Source: Prochlorococcus marinus str. MIT 0917 (GTDB lineage Bacteria; Cyanobacteriota; Cyanobacteriia; PCC-6307; Cyanobiaceae). From it: a stretch of 64,000 nucleotides of DNA. The notes beneath the pieces are model-generated. The model searched no databases. It was given only the letters and a program-made list of their open reading frames with translations, and was not told the origin of the DNA. The stretch covers positions 1,859,819 through 1,923,818 of the forward strand of contig NZ_CP114784.1 in the NCBI RefSeq assembly GCF_027359575.1. The letters run 5' to 3'. The translations under genes were made by a program, and so were the position numbers. Below are positions 3,105 through 20,206 of the stretch, one piece after another (the first letter of the stretch is position 1; each line of letters opens with the position of its first letter).

Positions 3105-3515
3105 GATTTCCCTGATGGTTTTGTGGTCTATTGAAGAGCTCAGGTTGTTACCTGAAGATTGATCGGAATCTCCTAGAGATAATATTTCAGGAAAAACTAT
3201 TTAATTTGTAATAATCCAACAGAAACACTCTAATTTGAGATTGTCCTTAATCGTGATAAATCTTGCGAAAAATCACATGACATCAATATGGACTTGAAAT
3301 TATGAAGGATGTTTTGTTGAAGAATGGAAATGTGTAAGCAAGGGAGTCAGGGGATTTCTCAGACCGGCTTATCTAAGAATTGGATTTTTCCTACTCTTGA
3401 TAAAGCTTCTAGTCTTCCCTCTGGGTGGAATTTTGCAAGTTCCACAACAGCTTTAAAGCTGTTAACTACCCAATGGTAGAAAAAATTTCTAAAGTCGGCA
3501 AGTATTAAAAAAGAT
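3105..3515. other. Divergent rpoD/priA intergenic region with overlapping short ORFs
   Basis: This region must hold the divergent promoters of rpoD and priA. Two short reading frames overlap in 3324-3520. The plus-strand frame runs from ATG 3324 to a stop at 3479 (51 codons). The minus-strand frame is open from 3520 to a stop at 3359 and reads like protein (VVELAKFHPEGRLEALSRVG) but has no ATG; its only common in-frame start is the GTG at 3445. Neither has a clear ribosome-binding site. I cannot assign a function; it could be a small conserved gene, a gene remnant or chance. Confidence 0.35.
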
Positions 3516-5759
3516 ATGAATCATTTTATATTTGATATTTGGTTACATGTAGGTCGTGAAGGACGATGTTTTTCTTATCAAGATGGAAATAATTTAGATA
3601 TTGATCTAGGCGATGTTGTGACAGTGCGCCTGAAAGGCCAACTCATGCAAGGGTTGGTAGTTAAAAAGATGAAAAAAAATATAACGAGCACACACCAAAA
3701 TATAAATAATTTTTCGCTGAATAATGTAGAAACATTGGTTCAAAAAGCAGCTATCAAAAAAGAATGGAGAGAGTGGCTAGAAGAAATTGCTCTTGATTTA
3801 TATGTAAGTGATTTTCAGATGCTTAAAACTGCGCTACCTCCTGGTTGGTTGGGAAGGTCGAAACTATTGAATAGGCCTAAAAAACTCTGGTGGGTAAAAT
3901 TGTCTAGCAATAATTATGAGGGAAAGATATCTTCTCGACAGATTGAGTTAAAGAGAAATCTTCTCTTAAATGGAGGAGGAAAATGGCAAAAGGATTTGGA
4001 GGCTGAAGGATTTTCTTCTGTATTGATTAGAAACTTTGTCTTAGTTGGTTGCGGAGAAAGAGAAAAACGTCTTTCCCTTTGTAATTCTTTTGATGATGAA
4101 GAATATAATGACAAAAAGATTTTAAAGATTGAAGATCCTCAATCTTTAACGTTAGAGCAAAAATTAGCAAAAGAAAAATATGAGTCTCTTCCAAGTGGAT
4201 CAGCTCTTTTGCTTTGGGGTGTTACTGGTTCTGGTAAGACGGAGGTATACCTACAAATTGCAGCGCTTGAGTTATCTGAAGGTAGACATTGTCTTATCCT
4301 TACACCCGAAATTGGGTTGGTACCACAATTAGTTGATCGCTTTCAAAAAAGATTTGGATTAAATGTTTTTGAATATCATAGTAATTGCTCTACTAAAGAG
4401 AAAATTGATACATGGAAGAGATCTTTAGACACTACAAAACCTAGTATTTTTATTGGTACTCGATCAGCTATTTTTCTACCATTATCCAACTTAGGATTGA
4501 TAGTTCTTGATGAAGAACACGATAGCTCTTATAAACAGGAATCCCCTATGCCTTGTTATCATGCAAGAGATTTGGCAATTAATAGGGCAAAAAAAATAGG
4601 TGCTAAAGTAATACTTGGAACAGCAACTCCATCTTTAAATGTTTGGAAAAATTTAAAACCCAATGGAAATATAGTTGTTGCGAAATTAACCCAAAGGATT
4701 TCGAATCGTAAATTACCAACGGTTAGTGTCGTAGACATGCGAGAAGAATTAGCTATTGGAAATCGAAGCTTAATTAGTAGATATCTAAAAAAACAACTTT
4801 TGAGTATAAAAGAGAGTGGAAATCAAGCTATTATTTTAGTCCCTAGACGTGGATATAGTAGTTTCTTAAGTTGCCGTAGCTGCGGAGAGGTCGTTCAATG
4901 TCCACATTGTGATGTCGCACTAACTGTACATCGTTCCAAAGAGGGTAATCAATGGTTGCGTTGTCATTGGTGTGACTTTCGTTCGAAAATTAGTGATAGA
5001 TGTGGAGAATGTGGTTCAAATGCTTTTAAACCGTTTGGAACTGGAACACAAAGAGTAATGGATCATTTAGAAAGAGAACTAGAGGGTATAAGTTTATTAA
5101 GGTTTGATAGAGATACAACTAGAGGCCGTGATGGCCATAGATTGTTGCTAGAAAGATTTGCTCATGGTGATGCCGATATTTTAGTAGGTACTCAGATGCT
5201 CTCTAAGGGTATGGATTTACCAAAAGTAACTCTTGCCGTCGTCTTAGCCGCAGATGGTTTATTGCATCGTCCTGATTTAATGGCTACTGAAGAAACGCTT
5301 CAACTATTTATGCAATTAGCTGGTCGTGCAGGACGAGGTGAGCAATCTGGAAAGGTTGTAGTGCAAACTTATTGTCCTGATCATCCAGTGATTCTTCATT
5401 TGATTGATGGGAGTTACGAAGAGTTTCTGAGAAAAGAAGATAAGACTAGAAAAGAAGCCTCGATGGTTCCATACAGTCGAGCCTGCTTATTAAGATTCTC
5501 TGGCGAATCGTCAGAGTTGACATCACATGGAGCATTTCATATTTCATCAAAAATAAAGAATGCTTGCAGTCAAAAAGGTTGGAAAATAGTCGGTCCAGCA
5601 CCTTCATTGGTTGAGAGGGTTGCAGGTAAAAGTCGTTGGCAACTTCTTTTATACGGTCCAGAATCAAGTCATATCCCACTTCCTTATGGACCTGAATTGT
5701 GGAAAGATTTACCAAAAGGAGTAACTCTTTCTATTGATCCTGATCCTCTACAATTATGA
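3516..5759 (+). CDS. priA: Primosomal replication restart helicase PriA
   Basis: Superfamily 2 DNA helicase of 747 residues that reloads the replicative helicase at stalled forks. An N-terminal DNA-binding domain (about residues 1-200) precedes Walker A GVTGSGKTEVY, the DEEHDSSYKQ Walker B motif and GTATPS. Zinc-binding cysteine pairs follow (CRSCGEVVQCPHCD, CHWCDF, CGECGS), then helicase motifs ending in QLAGRAGRG. All are intact. ATG start; divergent from rpoD and convergent with the DUF3153-like gene. Confidence 0.94.
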   Translation: MNHFIFDIWLHVGREGRCFSYQDGNNLDIDLGDVVTVRLKGQLMQGLVVKKMKKNITSTHQNINNFSLNNVETLVQKAAIKKEWREWLEEIALDLYVSDFQMLKTALPPGWLGRSKLLNRPKKLWWVKLSSNNYEGKISSRQIELKRNLLLNGGGKWQKDLEAEGFSSVLIRNFVLVGCGEREKRLSLCNSFDDEEYNDKKILKIEDPQSLTLEQKLAKEKYESLPSGSALLLWGVTGSGKTEVYLQIAALELSEGRHCLILTPEIGLVPQLVDRFQKRFGLNVFEYHSNCSTKEKIDTWKRSLDTTKPSIFIGTRSAIFLPLSNLGLIVLDEEHDSSYKQESPMPCYHARDLAINRAKKIGAKVILGTATPSLNVWKNLKPNGNIVVAKLTQRISNRKLPTVSVVDMREELAIGNRSLISRYLKKQLLSIKESGNQAIILVPRRGYSSFLSCRSCGEVVQCPHCDVALTVHRSKEGNQWLRCHWCDFRSKISDRCGECGSNAFKPFGTGTQRVMDHLERELEGISLLRFDRDTTRGRDGHRLLLERFAHGDADILVGTQMLSKGMDLPKVTLAVVLAADGLLHRPDLMATEETLQLFMQLAGRAGRGEQSGKVVVQTYCPDHPVILHLIDGSYEEFLRKEDKTRKEASMVPYSRACLLRFSGESSELTSHGAFHISSKIKNACSQKGWKIVGPAPSLVERVAGKSRWQLLLYGPESSHIPLPYGPELWKDLPKGVTLSIDPDPLQL

Positions 5760-16925: not shown

Positions 16926-17618
16926 GTGCAGCAAGATCATCCAGATTCGAGTAAAGAAAATAAAAATTTTTTCCGGTCTTCTTTCTTTGATACGTGGGGA
17001 CCTATTTCTCTAACTATTCTGTTGTATGTGGGTATTCGTCATTTTATAGCAGAAGCTAGATATATTCCCTCTGGTTCAATGCTTCCAGGATTGAAAATAA
17101 ATGATCGATTAATTGTTGAAAAACTTTCTTTGCGCAAAAGGTCTCCTTTCCGTGGGGAAATTGTAGTTTTCAACTCACCATATTCTTTTGATAAGAAATT
17201 GATAGCTGATAGAAATAAAAACCTTCCGTCTAAATTAAAATGCTCATTAATAACTTTTCCCTTGATTTCTTGGATCCCTACTTTATCAGATCGTGCTTGT
17301 GATGCTTATATAAAAAGGGTAGTAGCTGTAGGAGGAGATCGCCTTTTGATTAATGATAAGGGAGAGATTCTTTTGAATGGTAGGCCAATTAAAGAACCAT
17401 ATGTTGAATACTTCTGCCCAAGTAAAACTAAATTTAATTTATGTCGTACAATGACTACAACTGTTCCAAAAGGACATGTATTCGTTTTAGGTGATAACCG
17501 TGCTAATAGCTGGGATAGTCGTTTTTGGCCAGCAGGAGGTTTCTTGCCCCAGAAAGAAATAATTGGCAAAGCAGCCTGGCGTTTTTGGCCTATTAGTCGT
17601 TTTGGTAAGCCTGATTAA
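16926..17618 (+). CDS. lepB: Signal peptidase I
   Basis: Membrane protease that removes signal peptides from secreted and lumenal proteins. One N-terminal membrane segment (WGPISLTILLYVGIRHFI) precedes the catalytic serine in IPSGSMLPGL, the catalytic lysine in YIKRVVAVGGD and the LGDNRANSWDSR box. Length of 230 is typical. The frame starts with GTG at 16926. Its 3' end overlaps the convergent dihydroorotase-like gene by 26 bases. Confidence 0.93.
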   Translation: MQQDHPDSSKENKNFFRSSFFDTWGPISLTILLYVGIRHFIAEARYIPSGSMLPGLKINDRLIVEKLSLRKRSPFRGEIVVFNSPYSFDKKLIADRNKNLPSKLKCSLITFPLISWIPTLSDRACDAYIKRVVAVGGDRLLINDKGEILLNGRPIKEPYVEYFCPSKTKFNLCRTMTTTVPKGHVFVLGDNRANSWDSRFWPAGGFLPQKEIIGKAAWRFWPISRFGKPD

Positions 17619-18873
17619 TAAGACCACAATCTATAACTTTCCCAAGAATTTTTTTGTCTTTGATCGGTTGGTTCGTTGCGGCAGTCAGATGATTTTCTTC
17701 ATTAGATTGGTACCACTCTTTGTCGGGATCAAATAATAACCAACGGTTACTATTTAAACTTAATTTTTCTTCGGCTTGGTTGAGAAATTTAGATGGACCA
17801 AAACTAATTTTCTCCCATAATTTTTCTACTCTCCATCCTGATTTTCTTACTAATTGATCCCAGAGCAAAGGAAGAACAAGGTTATAACAACTGATCCCTT
17901 TTTTTCTTTTATTTGCAGGTAGCTTGGTCTCGGAGTCATCTGTAGGAGTGGAGTGAACAGATATTGCAGTTAAAACATTATCCTCTAAACTTTCTATTAG
18001 TGAGGCCCTGTCTCTGGGGGATCCTAATGAAGGTGTTACGCTCCATCCAATGTCAAAAGGAGAAAGACTTGAGTTGTCATTGACTAAATGCCACCATAAG
18101 ACAGTTGCCATTGGCTTAGAGGATGAATTTTTAAGTATTGAAACCCCCTCAGCTGTAGAAATATTCATTAACCTTAATTCAATGTCAGGGTATTGCTTAT
18201 GAAGCTCAAGTAATTGGATCAGAGGAATAATTTCACTCTCAACAGGATCAGGAGGCCAGCCTGCTCTCAGAGTATCTACACTTTGTCTAGACATCCCACT
18301 TGCTTGTAGTAATTTATCTCTGGGTGCAAATAGTACAGGGGAGTTTTTCATTTCTCCAAGTGAAAAACCTTGTTTAAGAAGCTCTATAGGAGGTAGAAAA
18401 TCGTCATCACTTAAGCCGATGGCTCCATTTTGTAGTAACTCATTATGTTTCGAAAGAGAAACCCCCTTCCCGCCTATACTAAAACCTCCCCATAGGTGTA
18501 TTAAAACCTCACTTTTGATAGTCTTTAAAGAAAGAATCGACTCGATTTGATCTCTCCATAAATCTCCTCTAGGTAGGATACCTAATTGGCCATATCCAGA
18601 AAATGTTGCTTTTTCTATAAGTGTATAGATACTCTCTTCTTTACCATTAAAGGGAGATTCCAAAAATGAATGTGGATCAACAAGACAAGGGGCTAAAAGC
18701 ATGTTCTTAGCTTTTTGAGGCTTGATTGCTAAATGTTCTTGTTCTGCATTTTGAAGAGCCTTACTGCCAAATGCTTTGATCACACCATCTTTGATTAAGA
18801 CAGTTTCTCTCTTTAGAGATGATCCAGCCTTTTCAAGAATTTGAATATTTTCAAACAAATAACTATTAGTCAT
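17593..18873 (-). CDS. Dihydroorotase-like protein, probably catalytically inactive
   Basis: A 426-residue amidohydrolase-fold protein aligning along its length with type I dihydroorotases. The binuclear metal site looks dismantled. The HxH motif is HSF at 68-70 (VDPHSFLESP), the carboxylated lysine position (GAIGL, 150-154) has no lysine, the histidine before the STAEGV motif is asparagine (N237), and the catalytic Asp region reads AISVHSTP. It is therefore more likely a structural or regulatory partner than an enzyme, comparable to the inactive dihydroorotase subunits known to associate with aspartate transcarbamoylase. The gene is otherwise intact, so selection has kept it. Four bases downstream of the tandem phosphatase gene. 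Confidence 0.78.
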   Translation of the reverse strand: MTNSYLFENIQILEKAGSSLKRETVLIKDGVIKAFGSKALQNAEQEHLAIKPQKAKNMLLAPCLVDPHSFLESPFNGKEESIYTLIEKATFSGYGQLGILPRGDLWRDQIESILSLKTIKSEVLIHLWGGFSIGGKGVSLSKHNELLQNGAIGLSDDDFLPPIELLKQGFSLGEMKNSPVLFAPRDKLLQASGMSRQSVDTLRAGWPPDPVESEIIPLIQLLELHKQYPDIELRLMNISTAEGVSILKNSSSKPMATVLWWHLVNDNSSLSPFDIGWSVTPSLGSPRDRASLIESLEDNVLTAISVHSTPTDDSETKLPANKRKKGISCYNLVLPLLWDQLVRKSGWRVEKLWEKISFGPSKFLNQAEEKLSLNSNRWLLFDPDKEWYQSNEENHLTAATNQPIKDKKILGKVIDCGLINQAYQND

Positions 18874-18877
18874 TAAA

Positions 18878-20206
18878 TTAAAGTGCTCCGGCAGCTGTTG
18901 AGTCGATAATTCCTCCCAAATGTGAGGTGATATTTAGACAGGTGATTTGATCAGGTTGACCTTCTTTCTCTGAGAGATCAATGACTGTAATACCTCCATT
19001 ACCTTGTTTGATCATCCAAATTTGTGATGGCATCAAACCTAATAGATGGCAAAGAATGGTTTTGTTAACTGCATCATGAGCTACAACCAATGCGGTTTCA
19101 TCGTTTTTTAGATCTTTGCAAATCTCATTCCAACCATGAATGGATCTCGTGGAGACTTCTTTTATATTTTCTCCTTCTGGCATTTGAACTTCTTCAGGAG
19201 AGACCTTCCATTTTTTTAATAGATCTGGCCAGTCGGTCTTGATCTCAGACTCCAACTTCCCTTCCCATTTACCGTGACCGATCTCTTTAAGGTTATCTTT
19301 GAGAGAAACTTCGATGCCTGGATGTTCGTTTAGAATTATCTGAGCTGTTTCTTTTGGTCTTGACAGAGAGCTACTAAAGGCTTTTTGTATAAGATTATTT
19401 TTTAAAAATTCACTTGCCGCCTTAGCTTGTGATTTGCCATTTTGATTTAAGGGGATGTCAATTTGTCCTTGGAACCTTCCCTGTTTATTCCAGTCTGTTT
19501 CACCATGCCTGACTAAAATAATTCTTTTTTTACTTCCTTTTTTTGGAATTGTAGGGTGTAAATGAGCGATATTATTGAGACATTGAAGTTGGACTTGTCT
19601 ATCTTTCCAATCATTAAAAGTAATATTACAAATTGATATTGAGGTATTATCTAACTTCAACCTCTTAAACCCTTTTGATGGTTCATTTATTAATTTCAGA
19701 ATCAAGCATCTAAGAATTGCATTATGGGCAACTATCAAAATAGTTTTATTAGAACCTGAATGAGCGTCAAATAAAGATTTTAAGAAATTTTCAGCTTGAT
19801 ATAAAAGTTCTTTAATTGGTTGAAATTTTGAACCGTCGTCTCTAGTAATGGTTAGTTCCTTTGGCTCTTTTTGCCAAGTAGCGAACTCTTCTGGGAACTG
19901 ATTTTTTATTTCATTTTTTGTTAAACCACTCCAAGGCTCAAGGTCAACCTCTAAAAGTTCATCAGTATAAGTTGCTTGAAGATCTTTATGGTGTTGTTTG
20001 ATAATGATTTTTGTGGTTTCTGAGGCTCTTTGTAGAGGAGAGCTGTAAATAGCATTTATTGGAATATAAGAAATTGTTTTTCCAGCCGCTTCAGCTTGTA
20101 ATTGCCCTTCTTTGGTTAATGTTGAAAGGTCGTTTCTTCCTTGAATACGACCTTCCTTGTTAAAACTGCTCAATCCATGACGGACAAAAATTAGACGCAA
20201 TGTCAT
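18878..20206 (-). CDS. Tandem-domain histidine phosphatase (phosphoglycerate-mutase-like)
   Basis: A 442-residue fusion of two histidine-phosphatase domains. The first has FVRHG with R9 and H10, the second has LVRHGETDWN with R233 and H234. Each half also carries the later catalytic histidine (VAHNAI near 160 and VAHDAV near 385). The cyanobacterial two-domain homologue slr1124 was reported to be the phosphoserine phosphatase of serine synthesis, so that role is possible here; annotation as phosphoglycerate mutase is less likely. It forms a unit with the dihydroorotase-like gene. Confidence 0.82.
   Translation of the reverse strand: MTLRLIFVRHGLSSFNKEGRIQGRNDLSTLTKEGQLQAEAAGKTISYIPINAIYSSPLQRASETTKIIIKQHHKDLQATYTDELLEVDLEPWSGLTKNEIKNQFPEEFATWQKEPKELTITRDDGSKFQPIKELLYQAENFLKSLFDAHSGSNKTILIVAHNAILRCLILKLINEPSKGFKRLKLDNTSISICNITFNDWKDRQVQLQCLNNIAHLHPTIPKKGSKKRIILVRHGETDWNKQGRFQGQIDIPLNQNGKSQAKAASEFLKNNLIQKAFSSSLSRPKETAQIILNEHPGIEVSLKDNLKEIGHGKWEGKLESEIKTDWPDLLKKWKVSPEEVQMPEGENIKEVSTRSIHGWNEICKDLKNDETALVVAHDAVNKTILCHLLGLMPSQIWMIKQGNGGITVIDLSEKEGQPDQITCLNITSHLGGIIDSTAAGAL

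Follow-up and report, generated by a model that had tools for sequence, protein, structure and literature searches.

Within a 64,000-nucleotide stretch of the Prochlorococcus marinus str. MIT 0917 genome (hereafter the window), we found that a gene of a family named 'dihydroorotase' encodes what, judged from its sequence, is a protein of the type I dihydroorotase (DHO) fold that lacks a functional metal site. The explanation that we favor, with confidence just short of even, is that the product is a non-catalytic pseudo-DHO of ancient origin that most likely serves as a dispensable subunit of aspartate transcarbamoylase (ATCase; PyrB). Under this explanation, a type I DHO would have given up the binding of zinc and substrate prior to the divergence of the known oxygenic cyanobacteria, and would then have been kept as a non-catalytic protein. 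By a mechanism like that of class A2 ATCases, pseudo-DHO dimers would bridge PyrB trimers and stabilize or tune the enzyme, in a partnership that would be non-obligate in Prochlorococcus. A literature search of incomplete coverage found no paper characterizing a cyanobacterial pseudo-DHO.

A dihydroorotase fold with an apparently dismantled active site

The open reading frame begins with ATG, contains no internal stop codons and starts 4 bases past the end of an upstream histidine phosphatase gene (Table 1), bearing out the intact frame and tight coupling of the original prediction. Its best family match was NCBIfam NF005614/PRK07369, 'dihydroorotase', over the full length (E 5e-70), with a score of 236 bits that lies below the curated cut-off of 456; a Pfam search of the protein returned no match. 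Synteny and tree placement indicate that it is probably a diverged PRK07369 orthologue. Many freshwater members of that family likewise have the phosphatase upstream and the signal peptidase gene lepB downstream, but the window protein differs from the family in its pocket, which reads H-x-N-H rather than Y-D-R-D, as well as in scoring under the cut-off.

An AlphaFold2 model built from an input alignment of 56 sequences was confident (pLDDT 91.7, pTM 0.93), and Foldseek placed type I DHOs first among its PDB matches (TM 0.82-0.86), the ATCase-bound Aquifex DHO (3d6n, 4bjh) being among the best. The structure prediction that had been proposed as a check thus returned a type I fold, and the protein aligns with type I DHOs over its full length. 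Despite this likeness to the active enzymes of Aquifex, Bacillus and Staphylococcus (3d6n, 3mpg, 3gri), identity to them is only ~20%, and the window protein has lost the counterparts of H63, H180, H232, D305 and the substrate-binding residues.

Table 1. Features of the window at and around the pseudo-DHO gene, with the positions of its active-site counterparts.
Feature	Coordinates	Strand	Basis or relation
Pseudo-dihydroorotase, 426 aa (PRK07369-related; type I DHO fold, active site apparently lost)	17593..18873	-	ORF, profile, alignment, AlphaFold2, Foldseek
Two-domain histidine phosphatase (gpmB/PspA-like)	18878..20206	-	Conserved upstream operon neighbor, 4 bases from pseudo-DHO
Signal peptidase I (lepB)	16926..17618	+	Convergent, downstream of pseudo-DHO, 26-base 3' overlap
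H68-S69-F70, remnant of HxH metal motif (Aquifex H61/H63)	18664..18672	-	Alignment
D156, position of Aquifex metal ligand Asp153, Asp retained	18406..18408	-	Alignment, one-residue ambiguity
A183, position of Aquifex His180	18325..18327	-	Alignment
N237, position of Aquifex His232 (Arg in other cyanobacteria)	18163..18165	-	Alignment
H307, in 'VHST', position of catalytic Asp305	17953..17955	-	Alignment

To map residues we used Aquifex DHO (3d6n) as the reference in an alignment anchored on the structures 2z00, 3gri and 3d6n, in which Aquifex H61/H63/D153/H180/H232/D305 fall on window H68/F70/D156/A183/N237/H307. The metal ligand set H61, H63, D153 and D305 is therefore incomplete, with F70 in place of H63 and H307 in place of D305. 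Aquifex R65, N95 and H309, which we take to be substrate contacts of type I DHOs, align with E72, R102 and T311, and N278 aligns with T280. The readings of the HxH motif as HSF, of the later histidine as N237 and of the catalytic Asp position as VHST all recurred in this alignment. Since it is anchored on several structures, the metal ligands are not simply shifted to nearby positions, an outcome that had been named as grounds for discarding the prediction. N278 has itself been named as a substrate contact (PMC3880350). The same work reported that the type I DHOs of A. aeolicus and S. aureus use Asp153 as a ligand instead of a carboxylated lysine, and that the Aquifex enzyme tolerates loss of H180/H232 alone (PMC3880350). 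The lysine whose absence had also been counted against activity is thus uninformative, the subtype being of the Asp153 kind and D156 being present, and we dropped that argument; what counts is the damage to H63, D305 and the substrate residues.

Nearly all of these substitutions are common to 21 close relatives, among which the gene has a dN/dS of 0.15, indicating purifying selection (compared with 0.13 for gpmB, 0.18 for lepB, 0.15 for caax and 0.03 for ppa). This combination makes the apparently dead site more than a chance occurrence, and the fold and reading frame are shown by these rates to be maintained, as far as codon comparison can tell, by selection. The intact frame, the many intact relatives and the low dN/dS also rule out that the window copy is a pseudogene or a sequencing artefact.

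We infer from the replaced residues that the protein is catalytically dead. That it nonetheless retains dihydroorotase activity through an unconventional site is highly improbable: H68 and D156 are still present, activity was reported for a P. aeruginosa PyrC paralog without zinc ligands (PMC2770081), and Aquifex withstands the loss at 180 and 232, but H63, D305 and all four substrate residues are replaced and the pathway step is otherwise covered. The separate active PyrC whose presence had been suggested as a check is found, to judge by its residues, elsewhere in the window genome, as an intact type II enzyme with H-x-H, K, H, H and D all present, and type II PyrC scored over the cut-off in 17/17 Cyanobiaceae tested.

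Loss of the site appears to predate the oxygenic cyanobacteria

In a survey of the phylum, the PRK07369 gene was present in 104/104 genomes of the same class outside Cyanobiaceae, 103 of them scoring over the family cut-off, among the matches listed; the 104 are rows counted in a kinship-ordered listing in which 91 genomes without matches are not itemized, and none of those listed from this class outside Cyanobiaceae lacked the gene. Within Cyanobiaceae it occurs in 144 of 161 genomes, one pseudogene included in the count. None of the 42 non-Cyanobiaceae members that we inspected (loci L025-L054, L075-L085 and L094) had an intact site: at the Aquifex positions, 41/42 carry Y61, 41/42 carry R232, and D305 is retained in 40/42. 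R232 aligns between Asp positions 153 and 305 in members of the family, where it perhaps fills the metal void. In two freshwater genomes (G036 and G129) a further DHO gene (L075 4990-6318; L080 6137-7288), immediately past lepB as seen from the pseudo-DHO, encodes an intact type I enzyme with the carboxylatable lysine motif GIKIFMG.

All cyanobacterial copies formed one clade (SH-aLRT 100); both its stem and the branch leading into Cyanobiaceae (1.54) are long. Two families of the same phylum, f31 and f37, retain a complete active site, with pyrB directly adjacent in 6/6 loci of f31; genome size and placement outside the class suggest that both are non-photosynthetic. Alphaproteobacterial copies, when added to the tree, fell nearest to the cyanobacterial ones (SH-aLRT 89), and those sampled have also lost the site and lie beside pyrB. 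Long-branch attraction is possible at this join, so a single loss of the site shared with alphaproteobacteria is not established. Residues and tree together show a metal-site loss that is apparently ancient and shared, predating the divergence of the known oxygenic cyanobacteria. Copies from Listeria, Monoglobus and Hymenobacter were also beside pyrB. Phage and plasmid matches were distant DHO relatives, with <25% identity among the matches listed; two records named Listeria phage (OR846851 and OR846840, our H19 and H20) that carry a dihydroorotase homologue are probably host chromosomal DNA.

Across the family the pocket occupies two states at Aquifex positions 61/153/232/305, Y-D-R-D in 37/42 other cyanobacteria and H-x-N-H in 21/24 Cyanobiaceae. 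Two fixed alternatives do not resemble random drift and are what would be expected had the pocket been re-used for a new sensing or catalytic function, either with a new ligand or, in picocyanobacteria, as a re-made metal site (H68-N237-H307), and the long branch leading into Cyanobiaceae agrees with a second remodeling. Conservation was indeed higher at pocket positions than at randomly chosen positions of the barrel (p about 0.003), but the excess was not significant against the opposite barrel face, a stricter control (p = 0.07 and 0.27), and fixed residues, such as an arginine in place of the metal, could be structural plugs. We regard re-use of the pocket as rather unlikely.

Prochlorococcus has lost the gene repeatedly

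Prochlorococcus lineages have lost the pseudo-DHO gene on at least four occasions, either through clean deletion or with stubs or a stop-riddled pseudogene left behind. The clade names for these lineages (HL, LLI) are our own assignment. The gene was absent from 13/14 sampled genomes of the HL-type genus g2, and in those inspected it has been removed cleanly from between lepB and gpmB; lepB borders the deletion scar in lineages without the gene. The sole HL-type copy found (L065, in G211) is very diverged: its branch measures 1.73, where the median is 0.33, which could reflect decay or a change in selection. In g1, the genus of the window genome, the tree of neighboring genes indicates at least three independent losses: three genomes keep N- and C-terminal stubs, one keeps nothing, and G398 has a full-length relic with nine stop codons (L172, about 3192-4441). 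G398 and the window genome are closely related.

These losses raise the alternative that Prochlorococcus is in the course of shedding a remnant it can do without, a gene whose ancestral role matters only in other cyanobacteria. Intact copies, those of the window genome's close relatives included, are however as constrained as the genes beside them (0.15 against 0.13-0.18), and we consider a mere leftover quite unlikely.

A conserved histidine phosphatase neighbor

In 21/21 Cyanobiaceae loci and in 26/42 other cyanobacterial loci the gene immediately upstream, transcribed in the same direction, is that of the phosphatase (5-44 bases away by alignment ends in Cyanobiaceae); in no locus does it have the opposite orientation. 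In the window it has an RHG motif in both histidine-phosphatase domains, and its best NCBIfam match was the phosphoserine phosphatase PspA, below the cut-off. For Synechocystis Slr1124, which we liken to it by annotation only, the published annotation is phosphoglycerate mutase or phosphoserine phosphatase (PMC11257934).

No other positional evidence in cyanobacteria is as strong as this link, and it sustains the reading in which the pseudo-DHO serves this two-domain, PspA-like enzyme (a putative phosphoserine phosphatase/phosphoglycerate mutase), rather than ATCase, as a subunit or regulator. We nevertheless judge it unlikely, as the phosphatase survives intact in every inspected lineage without the pseudo-DHO, the two genes showed no rate covariation (r = 0.13, p = 0.44), and no phosphatase was found upstream in 16/42 other loci, many of which have only ~1.5 kb of upstream sequence. 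We know of no precedent for a pseudo-DHO as the partner of a histidine phosphatase. Rates of the pseudo-DHO covaried most strongly with those of caax, a CPBP protease gene (r = 0.52), a value that we leave uninterpreted. A bolder version, which we hold to be about equally unlikely, is that an ancient, phylum-wide pseudoenzyme left ATCase and came to serve the adjacent phosphatase as a partner or as a ligand-sensing subunit, its pocket having been rebuilt twice, as Y-D-R-D and then, in picocyanobacteria, as H-x-N-H.

ATCase as the most probable partner

Returning to the favored explanation, a non-catalytic subunit of ATCase, we consider PyrB the most probable partner because this is the experimentally supported role of inactive bacterial type I DHOs (PMC7053772, PMC5929573), and because relatives of the gene lie beside pyrB. 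ATCase of P. aeruginosa requires its pDHO (PMC7053772), and disruption of an inactive, pyrB-adjacent DHO gene in S. meliloti causes pyrimidine auxotrophy (PMC5929573). Such pyrB-adjacent relatives may be either intact or inactive. The cyanobacterial protein resembles the PyrC'/PyrX pseudo-DHO of class A2 ATCases (Pseudomonas; Sinorhizobium smc01361) in having lost metal and substrate residues while an active PyrC is encoded elsewhere, and the sampled alphaproteobacterial copies are its nearest branch outside cyanobacteria. It differs in its replacement residues, in its linkage to the histidine phosphatase rather than to pyrB, and in having been lost repeatedly while PyrB was kept. The fungal CAD-like Ura2 of yeast, which we compared by description only, similarly keeps a zinc-ligand-free DHO domain for structural purposes (PMC7053772), but fused within a multienzyme polypeptide.

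No PyrI regulatory chain was detected in 22 genomes, in a search that detected its controls, making it unlikely that cyanobacterial ATCase is class B and leaving class C or a class A enzyme that contains a pseudo-DHO. Among PDB structures, PyrB matched best the autonomous trimers of the B. subtilis type, with Aquifex behind them. In no cyanobacterial locus examined was pyrB found beside the pseudo-DHO (~3-kb flanks), and the window genome's own pyrB is far from it; rates of pseudo-DHO and PyrB showed no excess covariation (r = 0.21, p = 0.21).

All lineages that lost the pseudo-DHO retain PyrB, and 4/4 of those tested retain PyrC. PyrB of three g1 losses had a single shared difference from that of carriers, and in the HL-type PyrB several otherwise conserved sites are changed. 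These g2 proteins (e.g. L134, L135, L137, L138 and L152-L156) have STRTK for STRTR and changes at P118, L181 and P221, and the changes occur only in the clade without the pseudo-DHO. The idea that PyrB Leu181 (GDILHSRV) contacts the pseudo-DHO, and that the HL clade has lost this contact, was rejected, as Aquifex ATCase has Lys there and g1 losers keep Leu.

The structural ATCase partner put forward in the original prediction thus remains plausible by homology, given that inactive relatives partner ATCase in Pseudomonas and have been proposed to do so, as PyrX, in Sinorhizobium. Its obligate version is made less likely by the absence of pyrB adjacency and by at least four Prochlorococcus losses that kept PyrB. 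The repeated losses indicate that the partnership, if real, is optional here: Prochlorococcus PyrB evidently manages without the pseudo-DHO, and streamlined lineages could drop the gene time and again.

Implications

Since every inspected family member from oxygenic cyanobacteria lacks an intact site, the gene named dihydroorotase throughout cyanobacteria is, as far as residues can tell, almost certainly not a dihydroorotase. The PRK07369 members inspected are themselves site-less and the family name therefore misleads, a misnaming that touches genome annotation and metabolic models across the phylum. Pseudo-dihydroorotases were already known; what stands out in this case is the phylum-wide spread, the misleading name, the changed neighborhood and the natural knock-outs. 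The finding raises the question of whether cyanobacterial ATCase is a class A2 complex or whether the pseudo-subunit has changed its partner. Because Prochlorococcus offers independent losses beside intact close relatives, the contribution of the gene may be tested in these natural knock-outs without engineering.
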